Below are positions 3,351 through 49,587 of a DNA stretch of 64,000 bases, in pieces (the stretch's first letter is position 1; every line of letters begins with the position of its first letter). Position numbers and translations under genes: made by a program. Source of the DNA: Rhodococcus jostii NBRC 16295 (GTDB lineage Bacteria; Actinomycetota; Actinomycetes; Mycobacteriales; Mycobacteriaceae). The stretch lies in the NCBI RefSeq assembly GCF_001894825.1, contig NZ_BCWY01000013.1, forward strand, positions 62,001-126,000, read 5' to 3'. Under the pieces are notes generated by a model that was not told where the DNA came from, did not search any database, and saw only the letters and a program-made list of their open reading frames with translations.

Positions 3351-3396
3351 GATACGAGTAGGGCCCACGGCAATTGCCGTGGGCCCTACTCGTATC
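3351..3396. terminator. Perfect 46-bp palindrome, bidirectional terminator-like
   Basis: Two 23-base arms, uninterrupted by any loop (centre between 3373 and 3374; arm GATACGAGTAGGGCCCACGG+CAA). It lies 12 bases after the lexA stop and 27 bases before the convergent acyl-CoA dehydrogenase stop, so it can fold in both transcripts. It has no clear poly-T tract, as is common in high-GC actinobacteria. Confidence 0.8.
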
Positions 3397-26824: not shown

Positions 26825-26868
26825 ACACTGCGGTCGGACGGGTCACTGTCCCGGTCCGACCGCAGTGT
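26825..26868. terminator. Terminator between gluD and recX
   Basis: Perfect 15-bp stem: ACACTGCGGTCGGAC (26825-26839) pairs with GTCCGACCGCAGTGT (26854-26868) around a 14-base loop, followed by TGTCGGTTCT. It lies between convergent gluD and recX, so it can serve both. Confidence 0.85.
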
Positions 26869-26877
26869 TGTCGGTTC

Positions 26878-27393
26878 TCAGGTCTCGTCGAACAAGTCGT
26901 CGGTCTCGGTCCCGGCCCGATCGAGTTGCTGCTTGACCACCTCGAAGGCCATGCCCTGTGGGAAGCCGCGGCGCGCCAGCATCGACACCAGCCGTCGCAC
27001 CGCCCGGTCGCGCTCGCCCGCGGACACGGTGCGCAGTTTCTTCACCACCAGTTCCGTGGCCCGCGCTCGTTCGTCTTCGCTGTCGATCTGGGCGAGCGCC
27101 TCGGTGGCGTCCTCCTGACCGATGCCCTTGCGGCGCAGTTCCATTGCGAGCGCACGCTTCCCCTTGCCGGAGTACGTGTGCCGCGAATGCACCCACTGCT
27201 GGGCGAAGTCCGCATCGTCGACGAGTCCGACTTCGGTGAGGCGATCGAGCACACGCTCGGTGATGTCGGCCGAGTAGCCCTTCTTGGCCAGGCGCTCGGA
27301 CAACTCCGCTCGACTCCGGGCACGGTCCGTCAGGAGACGCAGGCACAAATCCTTGGCCTGCGTCTCCGTTCCACCTTCGCCCGTAGGACGCAC
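26878..27393 (-). CDS. recX: RecA-regulating protein RecX
   Basis: 171 residues, three tandem helical RecX repeats (AELSERLAKKGYSADITERVLDRL; ADFAQQWVHSRH..GKRALAMELRRKGI; DRAVRRLVSMLARRGFPQGMAFEVV). It inhibits RecA filament growth. GTG start nine bases after the recA stop, so recA and recX form one SOS-inducible transcript. It ends in an acidic tail TETDDLFDET. Confidence 0.93.
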   Translation of the reverse strand: MRPTGEGGTETQAKDLCLRLLTDRARSRAELSERLAKKGYSADITERVLDRLTEVGLVDDADFAQQWVHSRHTYSGKGKRALAMELRRKGIGQEDATEALAQIDSEDERARATELVVKKLRTVSAGERDRAVRRLVSMLARRGFPQGMAFEVVKQQLDRAGTETDDLFDET

Positions 27394-38043: not shown

Positions 38044-39027
38044 CTACTTCGCCGGCGTCGTGTTCCGCGTCTTGAGAAGGCTGGCGACGGTGGTCACGGC
38101 CAGCACACCGATGATGACGGCGAGCGAGAACACCGTCGACACCTCCGGCACCGCCACGTGCTCGCCGCCGTTGACGAAGCCGAGCGTGTTCTCGTGCAGG
38201 GCGTGCAGGACGAGCTTCACGCCGATGAACGCGAGGATGATCGACAGACCGTACGCCAGGTAGACCAGGCGGTCCAGCAGGCCGCCGATCAGGAAGTACA
38301 GCTGACGCAGACCCATCAGCGCGAAGGCGTTGGCCGTGAAGACGAGGTACGGCTCCTGGGTGAGCCCGTAGATGGCGGGAATCGAGTCGAGCGCGAACAG
38401 CACGTCGGTGAAGCCGATGGCGACGAGCGCGAGCAGCAGCGGAGTCACGACGCGCTTGCCGTTGATCCGCGTGACCAGCTTGTCGCCGTCGTACGTGTCC
38501 GTGGTGGGCAGGAACTTCTTCGCGATGGCGACGATCTTGCTGTCGCGTTCCTCCTCGACCTCTTTCTCGTTTCCGTGATCACGCAGCAGCGTGTAGGCGG
38601 TGTAGATGAGGAAGGCGCCGAACAGGTAGAACACCCAGCTGTAGGTGTTGATCGCCGCGGCACCGACCGCGATGAAGATTCCACGCATCACCAGCGCCAT
38701 CACGATGCCGATCAGCAGCACCTTCTGCTGGTATTCCCGCGGTACCGCGAACGTTCCCATGATGATCACGAACACGAAGAGGTTGTCGACCGACAACGCC
38801 TTCTCGGTGACGTACCCGGCGAAATACTCGCCGCCGTACTGACTTCCCCACAGCCACATCACGATCAGGCCGAAGAGGATCGCGACGCCGATGTAGACCG
38901 ACGACCAGAACGCCGATTCCCGGAACGTGGGGGCGTGCGGGGTGCGCACGTGCGCGAAGAAGTCGAAGACGAACAGTCCGAGAATCACCACACACGTGAT
39001 GACCCAGACCAGTGGTGAAACATGCAT
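38044..39027 (-). CDS. TerC-family membrane protein, likely manganese exporter
   Basis: 327 residues, about eight to nine membrane helices with the family's acidic signatures SVDNLFVFVIIMG (about 79-91) and DVLFALDSIPAIYG (about 207-220). The loop ERDSKIVAIAKKFLPTTDTYDGDKL separates the halves. TerC relatives (MeeF, MeeY, Alx) move Mn2+ across the membrane and load exported enzymes. The yybP-ykoY aptamer directly upstream strongly supports a manganese role. Confidence 0.9.
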   Translation of the reverse strand: MHVSPLVWVITCVVILGLFVFDFFAHVRTPHAPTFRESAFWSSVYIGVAILFGLIVMWLWGSQYGGEYFAGYVTEKALSVDNLFVFVIIMGTFAVPREYQQKVLLIGIVMALVMRGIFIAVGAAAINTYSWVFYLFGAFLIYTAYTLLRDHGNEKEVEEERDSKIVAIAKKFLPTTDTYDGDKLVTRINGKRVVTPLLLALVAIGFTDVLFALDSIPAIYGLTQEPYLVFTANAFALMGLRQLYFLIGGLLDRLVYLAYGLSIILAFIGVKLVLHALHENTLGFVNGGEHVAVPEVSTVFSLAVIIGVLAVTTVASLLKTRNTTPAK

Positions 39028-39033
39028 GAAAAT

Positions 39034-39068
39034 AGACCTCCGGTATACCTAGTCGGTACCGGAGGTCT
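39034..39068 (-). promoter_or_regulatory. Ribosome-site-masking hairpin upstream of terC
   Basis: AGACCTCCGGTA (minus strand, 39068-39057) can pair in full with TACCGGAGGTCT (39045-39034), an 11-base loop between them. The second arm contains the terC ribosome site GGAGG, nine bases before the ATG. The first arm is the 3' strand of the riboswitch P1 helix, so the two folds exclude each other. Confidence 0.8.
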
Positions 39069-39176
39069 CTCCCGCCGCGCCGGATCCATTGTCCGAACGA
39101 CTGACGGCACCGGACCGGCAATGGTGCCGATCGTGTTGACGATGCCGTCACAGAGGTGGGGATACTCCCCTCCAAT
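39061..39176 (-). ncRNA. yybP-ykoY manganese riboswitch
   Basis: On the terC strand: P1 5' strand ATTGGAGG leads into loop L1 GGGGAGTA; a stem GACGGCA/TGCCGTC holds the inner ATCGTCAACACGAT hairpin; the 3' side carries GGGAGAGACCT (L3) closing P1 as CCTCC. The conserved pair GGGGAGUA...GACCU defines RF00080 in other bacteria. Mn2+ is known to bridge L1 and L3. Predicted switch-on by Mn2+, since P1 formation frees the ribosome site masked by the neighbouring hairpin. Confidence 0.85.
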
Positions 39177-39236
39177 TCGCTGCCCATTCAACCACACTGC
39201 GCGCGAACCGCACATTTCGGACACGCGCGGCGCGCC

Positions 39237-41855
39237 TTAGTCCTGGTCGGGCGGCGTCTCGTTCGGGTCGCCGCCGCGGATCGACCAGAGCAGACCGTCG
39301 AGTTCGTCCGGCTTGATGAGCACCTCGCGGGCCTTCGAGCCCTCGCTGGGGCCCACCACTCCCCTGGTCTCCATCAGGTCCATCAGGCGGCCGGCCTTCG
39401 CGAATCCGACGCGCAGTTTCCGCTGCAGCATCGACGTGGAACCGAACTGGCTGGAGACGACGAGTTCCACCGCCTGCAGCAGCACGTCCATGTCGTCGCC
39501 GATGTCGGGATCGACGTCCTTCTTCTCGCCCACCTTGGCCGCGGTGACACCGTCGGTGTACTCCGGCTCCGCCTGGTTCTTGGTGAAATCGACGACCGCC
39601 GAGATCTCTTCGTCGGTGATGAACGCACCCTGCAGACGTGTCGGCTTGCCGGCGCCCATCGGGAGGAACAGCCCGTCGCCCATACCGATGAGCTTCTCGG
39701 CGCCGGGCTGGTCCAGGATGACCCGCGAGTCGGTGAGCGAGGACGTCGCGAACGCGAGCCGCGACGGCACGTTCGTCTTGATCAGACCGGTCACGACGTC
39801 CACCGACGGCCGCTGTGTGGCCAGCACGAGGTGGATACCGGCCGCGCGCGCCTTCTGGGTGATGCGCACGATCGCGTCCTCGACGTCACGCGGCGCGGTC
39901 ATCATGAGGTCCGCGAGCTCGTCGACGATGGCGAGAATGTATGGATACGGCCGGTAGACGCGTTCGCTGCCGAGCGGAGCGGTAATCTCCCCTGACTTCA
40001 CCTTCGAGTTGAAGTCGTCGATGTGGCGCACCCGGTTGGCCTGCATGTCCTGGTAGCGCTGTTCCATCTCCTCGACCAGCCACGCCAGCGCGGCCGCGGC
40101 CTTCTTCGGCTGGGTGATGATGGGGGTGATGAGGTGCGGAATGCCCTCGTACGGTGTCAGCTCCACCATCTTCGGGTCGATGAGGATCATCCGCACTTCG
40201 TCGGGGGTCGCACGGGACAGCAGCGACACCAGCATCGAGTTGACGAAGCTCGACTTACCGGAACCGGTGGAACCGGCCACGAGCAGGTGCGGCATCTTCG
40301 CGAGGTTGGCGCAGACGAAATCGCCTTCGATGTCCTTGCCGAGACCGATCACCAACGGGTGGTGGTCCTTGCGGGTGCTCGGCGCGGTGAGGACGTCGGC
40401 GAGACGCACCATCTCGCGGTCGGAGTTGGGCACCTCGATACCGACCGCGGACTTGCCGGGGATCGGCGCCAGCAGGCGCACGTTGTCCGTTGCGACGGCG
40501 TACGCGATGTTGCGGGCGAGCGCCGTGATCTTCTCGACCTTGACGCCCGGGCCGAGCTCCACCTCGTAGCGGGTGACGGTCGGACCGCGGGTGAAACCGG
40601 TGACCGCGGCGTCGATCTTGAACTGCTCGAGGACCTCCGTGATGGCCTCGATCATCGCGTCGTTGGCGGAACTGCGCTTCTTCGGCGGATCGCCCTCGAT
40701 GAGCAGCGACGTGGGCGGCAACGTGTAGTCGCCCTCGACCACCCGGTCGGTCACGAACTTGTCGACGTCGGGCAGCGGTTCCGGTTCGGGTTCCGGCTTC
40801 GGTGCGACCACCGGTTTGGCCTTGGCACGCGCCGGTTTCGACGCCGGTGCGGGAGCCGGCACGGGTGTCGTGGCGGGCTCGGCGTCCCACAGCCCGAGCA
40901 CCTCCGTCTTCGCGGTGTCGCTGACGTCGTACTCGTCGGTGGGGTAATTGTCGGCCGCCGCACCCCGGCCACCGGACTTGTAGTCGTCGACGGGGTAGCC
41001 GTCGGCGTCGAACAGGGTGGGGTCATACTCGCCGTCTTCGTAGTACTCACTGTCGTAGTCGGCGTAATGGTCGCGGCCGAACGACGTTCCGAAGTACGAC
41101 TGCAGCTTGCCCGGCACCTCGCGGACCGTGGTTCCGGTCAGCAACAGCACACCGAACAGAGCCGCCAGCAGCAGCAGCGGCGCCGCGAGCCACACGGTCA
41201 GGCCGTCGGTCAGGGGACCGCCCGCCGCGTAACCGACGAATCCGGCGCCGCGGGCCCGGCCGTCCGCATCGGTGGGCGAACCGGTCGCGATGTGCCAGAG
41301 ACCGAGGGCCGGCAGGCCGACCAGCAGCGACCCCAGGACGAGTCGTGGCCGGATCTCGGGTTTCGGTTCGGTCCTCATCAGGATGACCGCGACGGCGACG
41401 CCGATCAGCGGCAGGATGCCGGACACCCCACCGAAGACGGCACGGACCCCGGTCTCGACCCACTCGCCGACGGGTCCGCCGGCGGAGAACCAGATTCCGC
41501 CCGCGACCACGACGCTGATCGCGATGAGCCCGAGGGCGATGCCGTCGCGCCGATGACCCTGTTCGATCTCGGCGGCCTTGCCGACGGTGCGGGTGGTGGC
41601 GCCGACCCCCTTCGTCATCAGTGACCAGCCGGCGCCGATTCCCCGGCCCACCGACTTCAGGGGACCGGACGTGGACGTCTTCTTCGCGGCGGGCCTCCGA
41701 GCCCCGCCGCCCCGGGGCGACGTGGACTTCCGCGGCGTGCTGACTGTCCGGGTCGTGCGGGACTTGGGCTTGGACGTCGTCGAGCCGCCTCGCACGCCCG
41801 TCCTCGTCGTGGACGTCGTCGTGCTCGAACCGCGTGCGCTCGCCTTACCTGCCAT
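39237..41855 (-). CDS. ftsK: DNA translocase FtsK/SpoIIIE
   Basis: 872 residues. N-terminal low-complexity basic tail (1-90), four membrane helices (about 110-235), an acidic/proline linker, the RecA-like motor with Walker A AGSTGSGKSS (near residue 528) and Walker B LILAIVDELADLMM, then a C-terminal gamma winged helix (SQFGSTSMLQRKLRVGFAKAGRLMDLMETRGVVG) that reads KOPS sites. Moves and resolves chromosome ends at the division septum. Stop TAA 39237. The terC riboswitch transcript starts close behind. Confidence 0.95.
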   Translation of the reverse strand: MAGKASARGSSTTTSTTRTGVRGGSTTSKPKSRTTRTVSTPRKSTSPRGGGARRPAAKKTSTSGPLKSVGRGIGAGWSLMTKGVGATTRTVGKAAEIEQGHRRDGIALGLIAISVVVAGGIWFSAGGPVGEWVETGVRAVFGGVSGILPLIGVAVAVILMRTEPKPEIRPRLVLGSLLVGLPALGLWHIATGSPTDADGRARGAGFVGYAAGGPLTDGLTVWLAAPLLLLAALFGVLLLTGTTVREVPGKLQSYFGTSFGRDHYADYDSEYYEDGEYDPTLFDADGYPVDDYKSGGRGAAADNYPTDEYDVSDTAKTEVLGLWDAEPATTPVPAPAPASKPARAKAKPVVAPKPEPEPEPLPDVDKFVTDRVVEGDYTLPPTSLLIEGDPPKKRSSANDAMIEAITEVLEQFKIDAAVTGFTRGPTVTRYEVELGPGVKVEKITALARNIAYAVATDNVRLLAPIPGKSAVGIEVPNSDREMVRLADVLTAPSTRKDHHPLVIGLGKDIEGDFVCANLAKMPHLLVAGSTGSGKSSFVNSMLVSLLSRATPDEVRMILIDPKMVELTPYEGIPHLITPIITQPKKAAAALAWLVEEMEQRYQDMQANRVRHIDDFNSKVKSGEITAPLGSERVYRPYPYILAIVDELADLMMTAPRDVEDAIVRITQKARAAGIHLVLATQRPSVDVVTGLIKTNVPSRLAFATSSLTDSRVILDQPGAEKLIGMGDGLFLPMGAGKPTRLQGAFITDEEISAVVDFTKNQAEPEYTDGVTAAKVGEKKDVDPDIGDDMDVLLQAVELVVSSQFGSTSMLQRKLRVGFAKAGRLMDLMETRGVVGPSEGSKAREVLIKPDELDGLLWSIRGGDPNETPPDQD

Positions 41856-48357: not shown

Positions 48358-49587
48358 TCATCCTCCTCGCGGCCGCGCCGCGGCCGCGAGGAGGACACCG
48401 AGGTTGCCGCGATCGTCCACCCGGACGTCGTCCAGCCCCAGCCACGTTGCCATTCTTCGCAGTTCGGGGAGCAACGCCTCCACCACCCGGCCCGGCGACC
48501 GGTCGGGTTCCACGAACGCGGATCGCACTTCGAGCGTTCCCGACGCTCGGTCGGCCTTGAGATCGACCCTCGCGACCAGTTCACCGTTCAGCAGGAACGG
48601 GAAGACGTAGTACCCGTGGACGCGTTTGTGCGCGGGTGTGTAGATCTCGAGGCGGTAGCGGAAGTCGAACATCCGCTCGGTGCGGGGCCGGTAGAACACC
48701 AGCGGATCGAACGGGCACAGCAACGCCGCCCCCTCCACCTTCCGGGGAACCCGGACGTCGCGGTGGACGAAGGCCGGTGTGTCCCAGCCCCGGACCGCCA
48801 CCTGTTCGAGCTCCCCGTCCTCGACGAGTTCCGCGATGGCCGCCGTGGTCTGTGCGGGCGACAGTCGGTAGTAGTCCCGCAGGTCGGGTTCGGTGGCCAC
48901 CCCGAGGGCCCGCGCGGACCTCTGCACGAGGCCGCGGACGGCGTCCGGCTCCGAGACCTGCTCGGAAAGAATCGCTTTCGGCAGCACACGTTCCGTGAGG
49001 TCGTAGTGGCGGGTGAACGCGACCCGTTTGTCCACCGCGAGCGCACCGGACGCGAACAGTTGCTCGCACACCACCTTGGTGTCGCTGCGATCCCACCACG
49101 GACCCTTTCGGTCGGGACGGTCGACCTCGAGGTGTTTCTCCACGTCACCGGCGCTGCACGCGCCGACGGCGCCGATCACGTCGAGCACGTCGGCGGCGAG
49201 GGTGGGGTTGCGGTCGAGGACGCGGGACTCGCCGGACCAGCGACCGTGCCGGTACCGGTGCATCCGCCAGCGCAGCAGCGGCCAGTCCTCGACGGGGATG
49301 AATGCCGCCTCGTGCGCCCAGTACTCGGCCAGCATGCGGGGTGCGCGGGCGGAGTGCGACCAGGCCGCCGAATCGACCAGCCCGCGGTCGTACACGCCGA
49401 GTCGGCTGAACAGCGGGACATAGTGGGCGCGCACGGCCACGGAGACCGAGTCGATCTGGAGCAGCCGCACCCGGTCGAGAACCGAACGGACGTGTCGGCG
49501 CGTCGGCGGGCCCGCCGGTTTCCTGTCGGCGAACCCCTGCGCCCACAGCGCCGATCTCCGGGCCGCGGCAGCGGTCATCTCACGCAT
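48358..49587 (-). CDS. YcaQ/AlkX-type winged-helix DNA glycosylase
   Basis: 409 residues. HTH_42 (PF06224) protein with the diagnostic LLQIDSVSVAVRAHYVPLFSRLGVYD (QID at 44-46, catalytic motif) and later AEYWAHEAAFIP and FDPLVFYRPRTERMFDFRYRLEIYTPAHKRVHGYYVFPFLL. Family members unhook interstrand crosslinks or remove alkylated bases. Not in an operon with a drug biosynthesis gene. Convergent with the SRPBCC gene with no gap. Confidence 0.85.
   Translation of the reverse strand: MREMTAAAARRSALWAQGFADRKPAGPPTRRHVRSVLDRVRLLQIDSVSVAVRAHYVPLFSRLGVYDRGLVDSAAWSHSARAPRMLAEYWAHEAAFIPVEDWPLLRWRMHRYRHGRWSGESRVLDRNPTLAADVLDVIGAVGACSAGDVEKHLEVDRPDRKGPWWDRSDTKVVCEQLFASGALAVDKRVAFTRHYDLTERVLPKAILSEQVSEPDAVRGLVQRSARALGVATEPDLRDYYRLSPAQTTAAIAELVEDGELEQVAVRGWDTPAFVHRDVRVPRKVEGAALLCPFDPLVFYRPRTERMFDFRYRLEIYTPAHKRVHGYYVFPFLLNGELVARVDLKADRASGTLEVRSAFVEPDRSPGRVVEALLPELRRMATWLGLDDVRVDDRGNLGVLLAAAARPRGG

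Follow-up and report, generated by a model that had tools for sequence, protein, structure and literature searches.

The terC leader of Rhodococcus jostii as a probable compact yybP-ykoY Mn2+ riboswitch with one strand common to its switch helix and its ribosome-site mask

The leader of terC in Rhodococcus jostii NBRC 16295 is very probably a compact Mn2+ riboswitch of the yybP-ykoY class that lacks the P2 arm, turns translation on, and takes its decision co-transcriptionally. Positions are those of the window, the whole 64-kb stretch of DNA that was analyzed from a genome of 9.7 Mb; the riboswitch-like leader lies there on the minus strand, between terC and an open reading frame at 39237-41855 that we take to be ftsK. 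Its structure is conserved, it is homologous to the leader of Escherichia coli alx, its gene context is that of Mn2+ handling, and it contains two mutually exclusive pairings for which energies can be predicted. The features are collected in Table 1.

Table 1. Features of the terC leader and its gene in the window; A1 is the alignment of 51 leaders described in the text.
Feature	Position	Strand	Description
terC	38044..39027	-	ORF of 327 aa; TerC/Alx family membrane protein; regulated gene
terC Shine-Dalgarno GGAGG	39037..39041	-	9 nt 5' of ATG 39027; from sequence
Putative -10 element TTGAAT, after TGTGG	39186..39191	-	would imply an RNA start at about 39179
P1.1 5' strand GGAGG	39169..39173	-	pairs with 39065-39061; five pairs form in 51/51 leaders
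P1.1 3' strand CCUCC, switching strand	39061..39065	-	common to P1.1 and masking hairpin
L1 GGAGUA	39163..39168	-	invariant in A1 (51 leaders), in part a selection effect because A1 leaders were chosen by GGGGAGTA
GAGA, L1 internal loop, 3' side	39066..39069	-	between P1.2 and P1.1 3' strands, by the R1 alignment
P1.2 5' strand UCCC	39159..39162	-	pairs with GGGA 39073-39070
P3 lower stem 5' strand GACGGCA	39143..39149	-	pairs with UGCCGUC 39109-39103
L3 UCGUCAACAC	39133..39142	-	inside the P3 stem; CGUCA invariant in 51/51 (A1)
P3 upper hairpin GAUCGGC...GCCGGUC	39113..39132	-	covariation, helices 4 and 5
CGG	39110..39112	-	opposite side of L3, after the upper P3 hairpin
P4 arm	39074..39101	-	closing pairs 39101-39097 / 39078-39074
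Masking hairpin AGACCUCCGGUA / UACCGGAGGUCU	39034..39068	-	perfect 12 bp; arms 39068-39057 / 39045-39034

The terC product scores 179.5 bits against the Pfam TerC model and 382.6 bits against NCBIfam TIGR03718, R_switched_Alx (cut-off 246.4), so that a Mn2+ homeostasis gene stands 3' of the element; the closest named relatives, from Rhodococcus koreensis, R. opacus and R. wratislaviensis, are 97-98% identical. Upstream of P1.1, the string TGTG(G/A)TT(G/C)AAT was counted by eye in 23 of 51 leaders, and a sigma-70 consensus scan of the terC leader region returned no promoter. The TGTGG-TTGAAT box may be taken as a weak promoter lead.

A first-pass annotation, made from the letters of the window, had proposed a yybP-ykoY-type Mn2+ riboswitch 5' of terC, and the comparative evidence below supports that proposal. 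The strings it named occur on the minus strand, GGGGAGUA at 39170-39163 and GAGAGACCU at 39071-39063; the GACGGCA/UGCCGUC stem and the GGAGG ribosome site are likewise present, and the 12-bp hairpin between the CCUCC arm and that site is exact (Table 1). Its placement of L3 was mistaken: the string so labelled, GAGAGACC, contains the bases on the 3' side of L1, and L3 itself, CGUCAACAC, sits within the GACGGCA stem. With this correction, P1.1 and P1.2 flank the L1 internal loop GGAGUA, the P3 arm bears an L3 with the invariant adenosine (UCA/ACA), and covariation supports the helices P1.1, P1.2, P3 and P4. By analogy, Mn2+ would be expected to bind A39137, the counterpart of A41 in Lactococcus lactis, where the loop UCA41AUUC holds a Mn2+-binding adenosine (PMC6754395).

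The masking hairpin is more than a chance occurrence. The 64-kb window has five places with a perfect 12-bp hairpin whose loop is 3-20 nt long, against an expected 0.15, the mean over 20 copies generated from the window by a first-order Markov model. Four other perfect hairpins of at least 12 bp, at 3352-3395, 26825-26868, 27333-27367 and 48361-48395, are possibly terminators. The 167-nt stretch 39176-39010 as a whole has a folding z of -4.14, and none of 200 shuffles folds as well.

A P2 arm, and with it a four-way junction, is absent from the window, where P1.2 and P3 leave no room for it; the Rfam model shows a P2 stem, and in the crystal structures P2 is part of the four-way junction (PMC6754395). 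Of the 144 elements parsed from related genomes and the window, 137 have 12-22 nt from P1.2 to L3, P3 strand included, and the values of 0-4 in the other 7 were taken as early matches of a loose pattern. We did not count P2 as required because E. coli alx also appears by sequence to be P2-less, and its loss would then be a variation already present in a studied member of the class. A literature search covering part of the relevant sources returned no paper on a yybP-ykoY element with a three-way junction.

Comparison of leaders carries most of the structural argument. A simple pattern, GGAGTA plus AGACC within 200 nt 5' of the start, occurs in 28 of 80 named terC relatives and not in 52, so the element, as seen by this pattern, does not stand before every terC; of another set of 30 loci, the window's own genome among them, 24 have GGGGAGTA at the matching place. 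After removal of one duplicate, 51 leaders were aligned as A1. They share the structure P1.1-L1(GGAGUA)-P1.2-P3 with L3-P4, the core of the L3 loop being UCGUCA. In A1, 94.2% of the cells are paired and 20 of 29 pairs show two-sided changes, a level reached in 0 of 500 shuffles; controls in which the partners were slid by 1-3 columns are 35-51% paired.

The Rfam model RF00080 was dropped as a detector, having yielded, in a permissive search of 18 relatives, a single weak match that was correctly placed (L011, 16 bits, E 3.1), and a model, R1, was built instead from actinobacterial leaders only, without proteobacteria. R1 matches 188 of 296 class genomes at E<=1e-3. From the matches listed, the best-scoring gave 148 loci (L125-L173 and L176-L274), with those listed in two genomes (G074 and G136) omitted as already in A1. 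Ninety-nine of these loci, class-wide and none at a place used to build R1, make up alignment A3 (L176-L274), in which 94.3% of the cells are paired and 25 of 29 pairs show two-sided changes, figures for the best-scoring loci among the matches listed and for an alignment fitted to R1, which favors agreement. Two-sided changes affect all 8 pairs of the P3 lower stem in both A1 and A3, and 4 of 5 pairs of P4 in A1 against 5 of 5 in A3. The parsed set of 144 elements consists of the 148 loci and the window, less four that could not be parsed (L214, L243, L262 and L270) and one duplicate; three of the 144 (L126, L139 and L149) also went into R1. Within this set P1.2 covaries, its strands being chiefly UCCC/GGGA (47 elements), UUCC/GGAA (41), CUCC/GGAG (13) and GCCC/GGGC (6), and 34 of the 144 have three of its four pairs.

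Built without any proteobacterial sequence, R1 nevertheless gives the E. coli alx leader a score of 47.3 bits (E 1.3e-11) and aligns it from P1.1 through P4, and this match establishes homology to an experimentally supported member of the class. GGAGUA, the invariant L1 of A1, is also found where R1 aligns alx. That the terC leader might be a mere Shine-Dalgarno hairpin with a chance likeness to yybP-ykoY, as its RF00080 score under the cut-off could suggest, is scarcely credible beside the covariation, the class-wide recurrence and the R1 match on alx.

RF00080 itself performs poorly on these sequences. A search of the whole window with Rfam at the gathering threshold gave no match, and in a permissive search the leader scores 14.6 bits (E 0.044; cut-off 45). 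The first-pass annotation had expected an RF00080 match, which in this sense failed to appear, and had named the lack of one, together with the lack of any Mn2+-dependent change, as a reason to give up the assignment; the silence of RF00080 is weak evidence against membership because two known E. coli members fail as well, mntP scoring 41.6 bits, under the same cut-off, and the alx leader being missed at E<=1. A gathering score is, moreover, a curated threshold and no structural feature. Among the 296 class genomes, RF00080 reaches its cut-off in none and gives a match at E<=0.01 in 11. For at least 7 of these 11 genomes (matches L112-L122), namely G242, G247, G248, G262, G358, G398 and G406, the RF00080 match lies elsewhere than the R1 match, and could reflect a second branch or chance.

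The element follows Mn2+ handling genes. Downstream of the 144 elements, which derive from the best-scoring among the matches listed, are 132 genes for TerC, 6 for GDT1 (UPF0016), 2 large open reading frames and 4 others; two of the downstream products (P0002 and P0004) match Pfam GDT1. The element is also found 5' of a very large open reading frame at L166, L167 and L289, possibly a Mn2+ pump. The frame at L289, 1538 aa long, is a P-type ATPase by Pfam, an identity that rests on this longer frame, since a 686-aa piece of large ORF had no Pfam match; L167 is counted as a large ORF. As for other downstream genes, those at L162 and L171 are frames with no Pfam match, L156 has no clear frame, and the one at L247 encodes a GreA/GreB C-terminal domain protein (Pfam, 61.9 bits).

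We also queried 13 genomes whose terC leader has no element, from Nocardia, Mycobacterium/Mycolicibacterium, Antrihabitans and a group like R. qingshengii/R. globerulus. Ten have R1 matches at E<=0.01, and all ten have one such match 5' of GDT1, two of them carrying a match before another terC copy as well. The terC genes of R. qingshengii/R. globerulus type (L037, L038, L039, L041, L042 and L043) have no element and start close after the apparent end of ftsK; three of these six genomes have an R1 match before GDT1, and the other three have none at E<=0.01. In the Vibrio parahaemolyticus system, the UPF0016-type mneA and terC are both Mn-induced and both lie behind yybP-ykoY elements, as stated in PMC13274385. 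The window's own genome holds a second element 5' of GDT1 (contig C106, L288, 1281-1453; R1 40.6 bits), with CGACAUACUGG as its L3. The whole-genome R1 search of this genome listed only the terC element and a 15-bit match, missing the GDT1 copy, so R1 copy counts are lower bounds. A second terC-like gene in the same genome (G000:C58:1774-2727) is 63% identical to the window's TerC, and that search listed no R1 match at it.

The strand that links aptamer and ribosome site is CCUCC, which the first-pass annotation had correctly seen as common to P1 (here P1.1) and the ribosome-site hairpin, so that the two pairings exclude each other. CCUCC is the P1.1 3' strand in 114 of the 144 elements. Where that strand is CCUUC (13 elements), the best downstream 7-nt complement contains GAAGG in 5, GGAGG in 7 and another string in 1; where it is CUUUC (5 elements), the best complement contains GAAAG in 4; and in the 144-element set neither CGAAGG nor CGAAAG occurs in any CCUCC row. 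This joint change of three strands supports an exclusive pairing, but it may stem from few lineages. Other comparisons are less telling. The best downstream 7-nt complement pairs at 6.55 of 7 positions, which modestly exceeds the 5.72 obtained with shuffled sequence, and the consensus P1.1 5' strand pairs with the deviant 3' strands at 4.7 of 5 positions against 4.9 for their own partners (G-U allowed), a neutral result. Over the 51 leaders, the mask core CCUCCGG/CCGGAGG is paired in 48-51 at each position, and the masking helix taken alone has no covariation beyond shuffles, 72 of 500 of which reach its paired percentage; constraint on both arms is the presumed reason.

Folding predictions place the two pairings far apart. 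For the full leader, the predicted minimum free energy structure is the masked fold, with an unpaired probability of 0.0 for the Shine-Dalgarno sequence, and a fold constrained to have P1.1, P1.2 and an open L1 is less stable by 15.7 kcal/mol at 37 C and by 16.7 at 30 C. Across the 51 leaders this gap has a median of 12.2 and a range of 3.3-18.7 kcal/mol, and the mask core has a probability above 0.9 in 44. Partial transcripts behave otherwise: the probability of P1.1 (first pair) is 0.07 for a transcript ending at 39061, 0.65 at 39057, 0.48 at 39052 and 0.45 at 39046, then falls to 0.07 at 39041 and to zero at 39036. With P1.1 substantially populated only in partial transcripts and a gap of about 16 kcal/mol in the finished one, a kinetic, co-transcriptional decision is the more likely. 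A gap of this size is no argument against function because the predicted gap for the alx leader, 16.3 kcal/mol, is similar.

From these observations we infer Mn2+ as the ligand, the ON direction, the translational level and the kinetic decision. The leader would fold as P1.1-L1-P1.2 beside P3-L3 and P4, and docking of L1 and L3 around Mn2+ would hold P1.1 together. About 20 nt after CCUCC, the polymerase would produce the ribosome site GGAGG, the rival partner of that strand. If Mn2+ has locked P1.1 by then, the ribosome site would remain accessible and TerC, which presumably handles or exports Mn2+, would be made; otherwise CCUCC would pair with the ribosome site in the highly stable 12-bp hairpin, and translation would be off. 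The chances are about even that the element stands, in addition, for a large actinomycete branch of the class with a three-way junction, in which the P1.1 strand doubles as the anti-ribosome-site strand, Mn2+ acts only as a kinetic gate over some 20 nt, an mRNA that has turned OFF has practically no way back, and scores fall below the present Rfam cut-off.

The ON-by-Mn model of the first-pass annotation keeps its expected logic, by analogy to mntP and alx, and loses its simple equilibrium picture: the computed folds do exclude each other as it had it, but the masked one is favored by about 16 kcal/mol. A riboswitch at thermodynamic equilibrium, in which Mn2+ would re-open a formed mask in the finished mRNA, is accordingly unlikely, if worth serious consideration. 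The nearest-neighbor energies leave out Mn2+ and tertiary contacts such as docking, and the predicted gap is just 3.3-7.0 kcal/mol in 8 of the 51 relatives; in the window, however, it is 15.7-17 kcal/mol, and a gap of that order, or of the median found across the leaders, is likely above what a ligand with micromolar to millimolar affinity can pay.

It is improbable that the mask serves instead as an intrinsic terminator, like the hairpin of L. lactis, with transcription attenuation as the outcome. Some yybP-ykoY members are transcriptional, according to PMC6754395 and PMC11087558, the masking hairpin is strong and G+C-rich, and in the window U occupies 6 of the 8 positions that follow the GGAGG arm (UCUAUUUU), with AUUUUC following the full 12-bp arm. 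Yet at least 5 U occur in those 8 nt in 7 of 51 leaders, the window included, and fewer in 44, the 3' arm of the hairpin is the Shine-Dalgarno sequence itself, and a terminator scan of 38950-39300, which allows loops of 3-8 only, gave no match. Attenuation is kept as a rival because the window is among the 7 U-rich leaders and because of this limit on loops in the scan.

It seems quite improbable that the leader is a conserved RNA responding chiefly to something else, such as pH or another metal. In E. coli, alkaline pH is a second cue for alx besides Mn (PMC9603457), but alx is itself Mn-responsive, the L1/L3 core is invariant, and the association is with TerC and GDT1, both Mn-linked families. 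The translational Mn2+ switch with a co-transcriptional decision therefore remains the preferred reading of the terC leader.

Elements of the class in actinobacteria are already in print, and the Rhodococcus terC element therefore belongs to a known class. Two yybP-ykoY elements are reported for Corynebacterium glutamicum in PMC4046766, and a survey that includes Corynebacteriaceae and Mycobacteriaceae gives yybP-ykoY in more than 75% of groups, the accessible passages being silent on those two families (PMC3766115). A literature search, partial for subscription journals, returned no report of a Rhodococcus terC riboswitch. What is added here is the anatomy, the use of one strand by both the switch helix and the ribosome-site mask, the distribution over the class, and the finding that the current Rfam model scores below its cut-off here. 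The analysis offers a concrete and testable Mn2+ switch for Rhodococcus terC; elements of the same kind, in 188 of 296 sampled genomes and located 5' of terC, of GDT1 and of certain genes for P-type ATPases, would change the annotation of Mn2+ homeostasis in actinomycetes; and the overlap of switch helix and anti-ribosome-site strand makes kinetic versus equilibrium control of a riboswitch a testable matter.

One of the known systems close to it is the terC leader of C. glutamicum (cg2157), for which Table 2 of PMC3890552 prints an RF00080 score of 49.13 bits and a 5' UTR from RNA-seq in agreement with it. The likeness is that of one actinobacterial terC leader to another and is drawn from the printed score of an older Rfam release; in the class-genome search, C. 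glutamicum did not appear above the present RF00080 cut-off. With the aptamers of L. lactis yybP and Xanthomonas oryzae, the window element shares L1, an L3 with its adenosine (UCA/ACA) and P1.1 as the switch helix, and the L1 of those two holds an A-minor adenosine (PMC6754395). They have a four-way junction and act on transcription, whereas the window element has a three-way junction and probably acts on translation.

Both E. coli members, alx and mntP, are Mn2+-responsive in vivo according to PMC9603457. In mntP, the same source describes Mn2+-dependent activation of translation initiation for a Mn2+ exporter gene, the mode proposed here for terC; unlike the window element, mntP has a P2 stem and comes within a few bits of the RF00080 cut-off, and R1 does not list its leader at E<=10. 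The other member, alx, is a TerC-family gene. The R1 alignment of its leader runs P1.1-L1-P1.2-P3-L3-P4, both leaders are without P2, the predicted fold of alx has a hairpin just 3' of the aptamer that would take up the P1.1 3' strand, the predicted fold gaps are similar, and the window's TerC falls within the family TIGR03718, R_switched_Alx. The two differ in that alx has a documented pH response and a start codon about 80 nt past the aptamer, whereas in the window the 3' arm of the hairpin is the ribosome site of terC.
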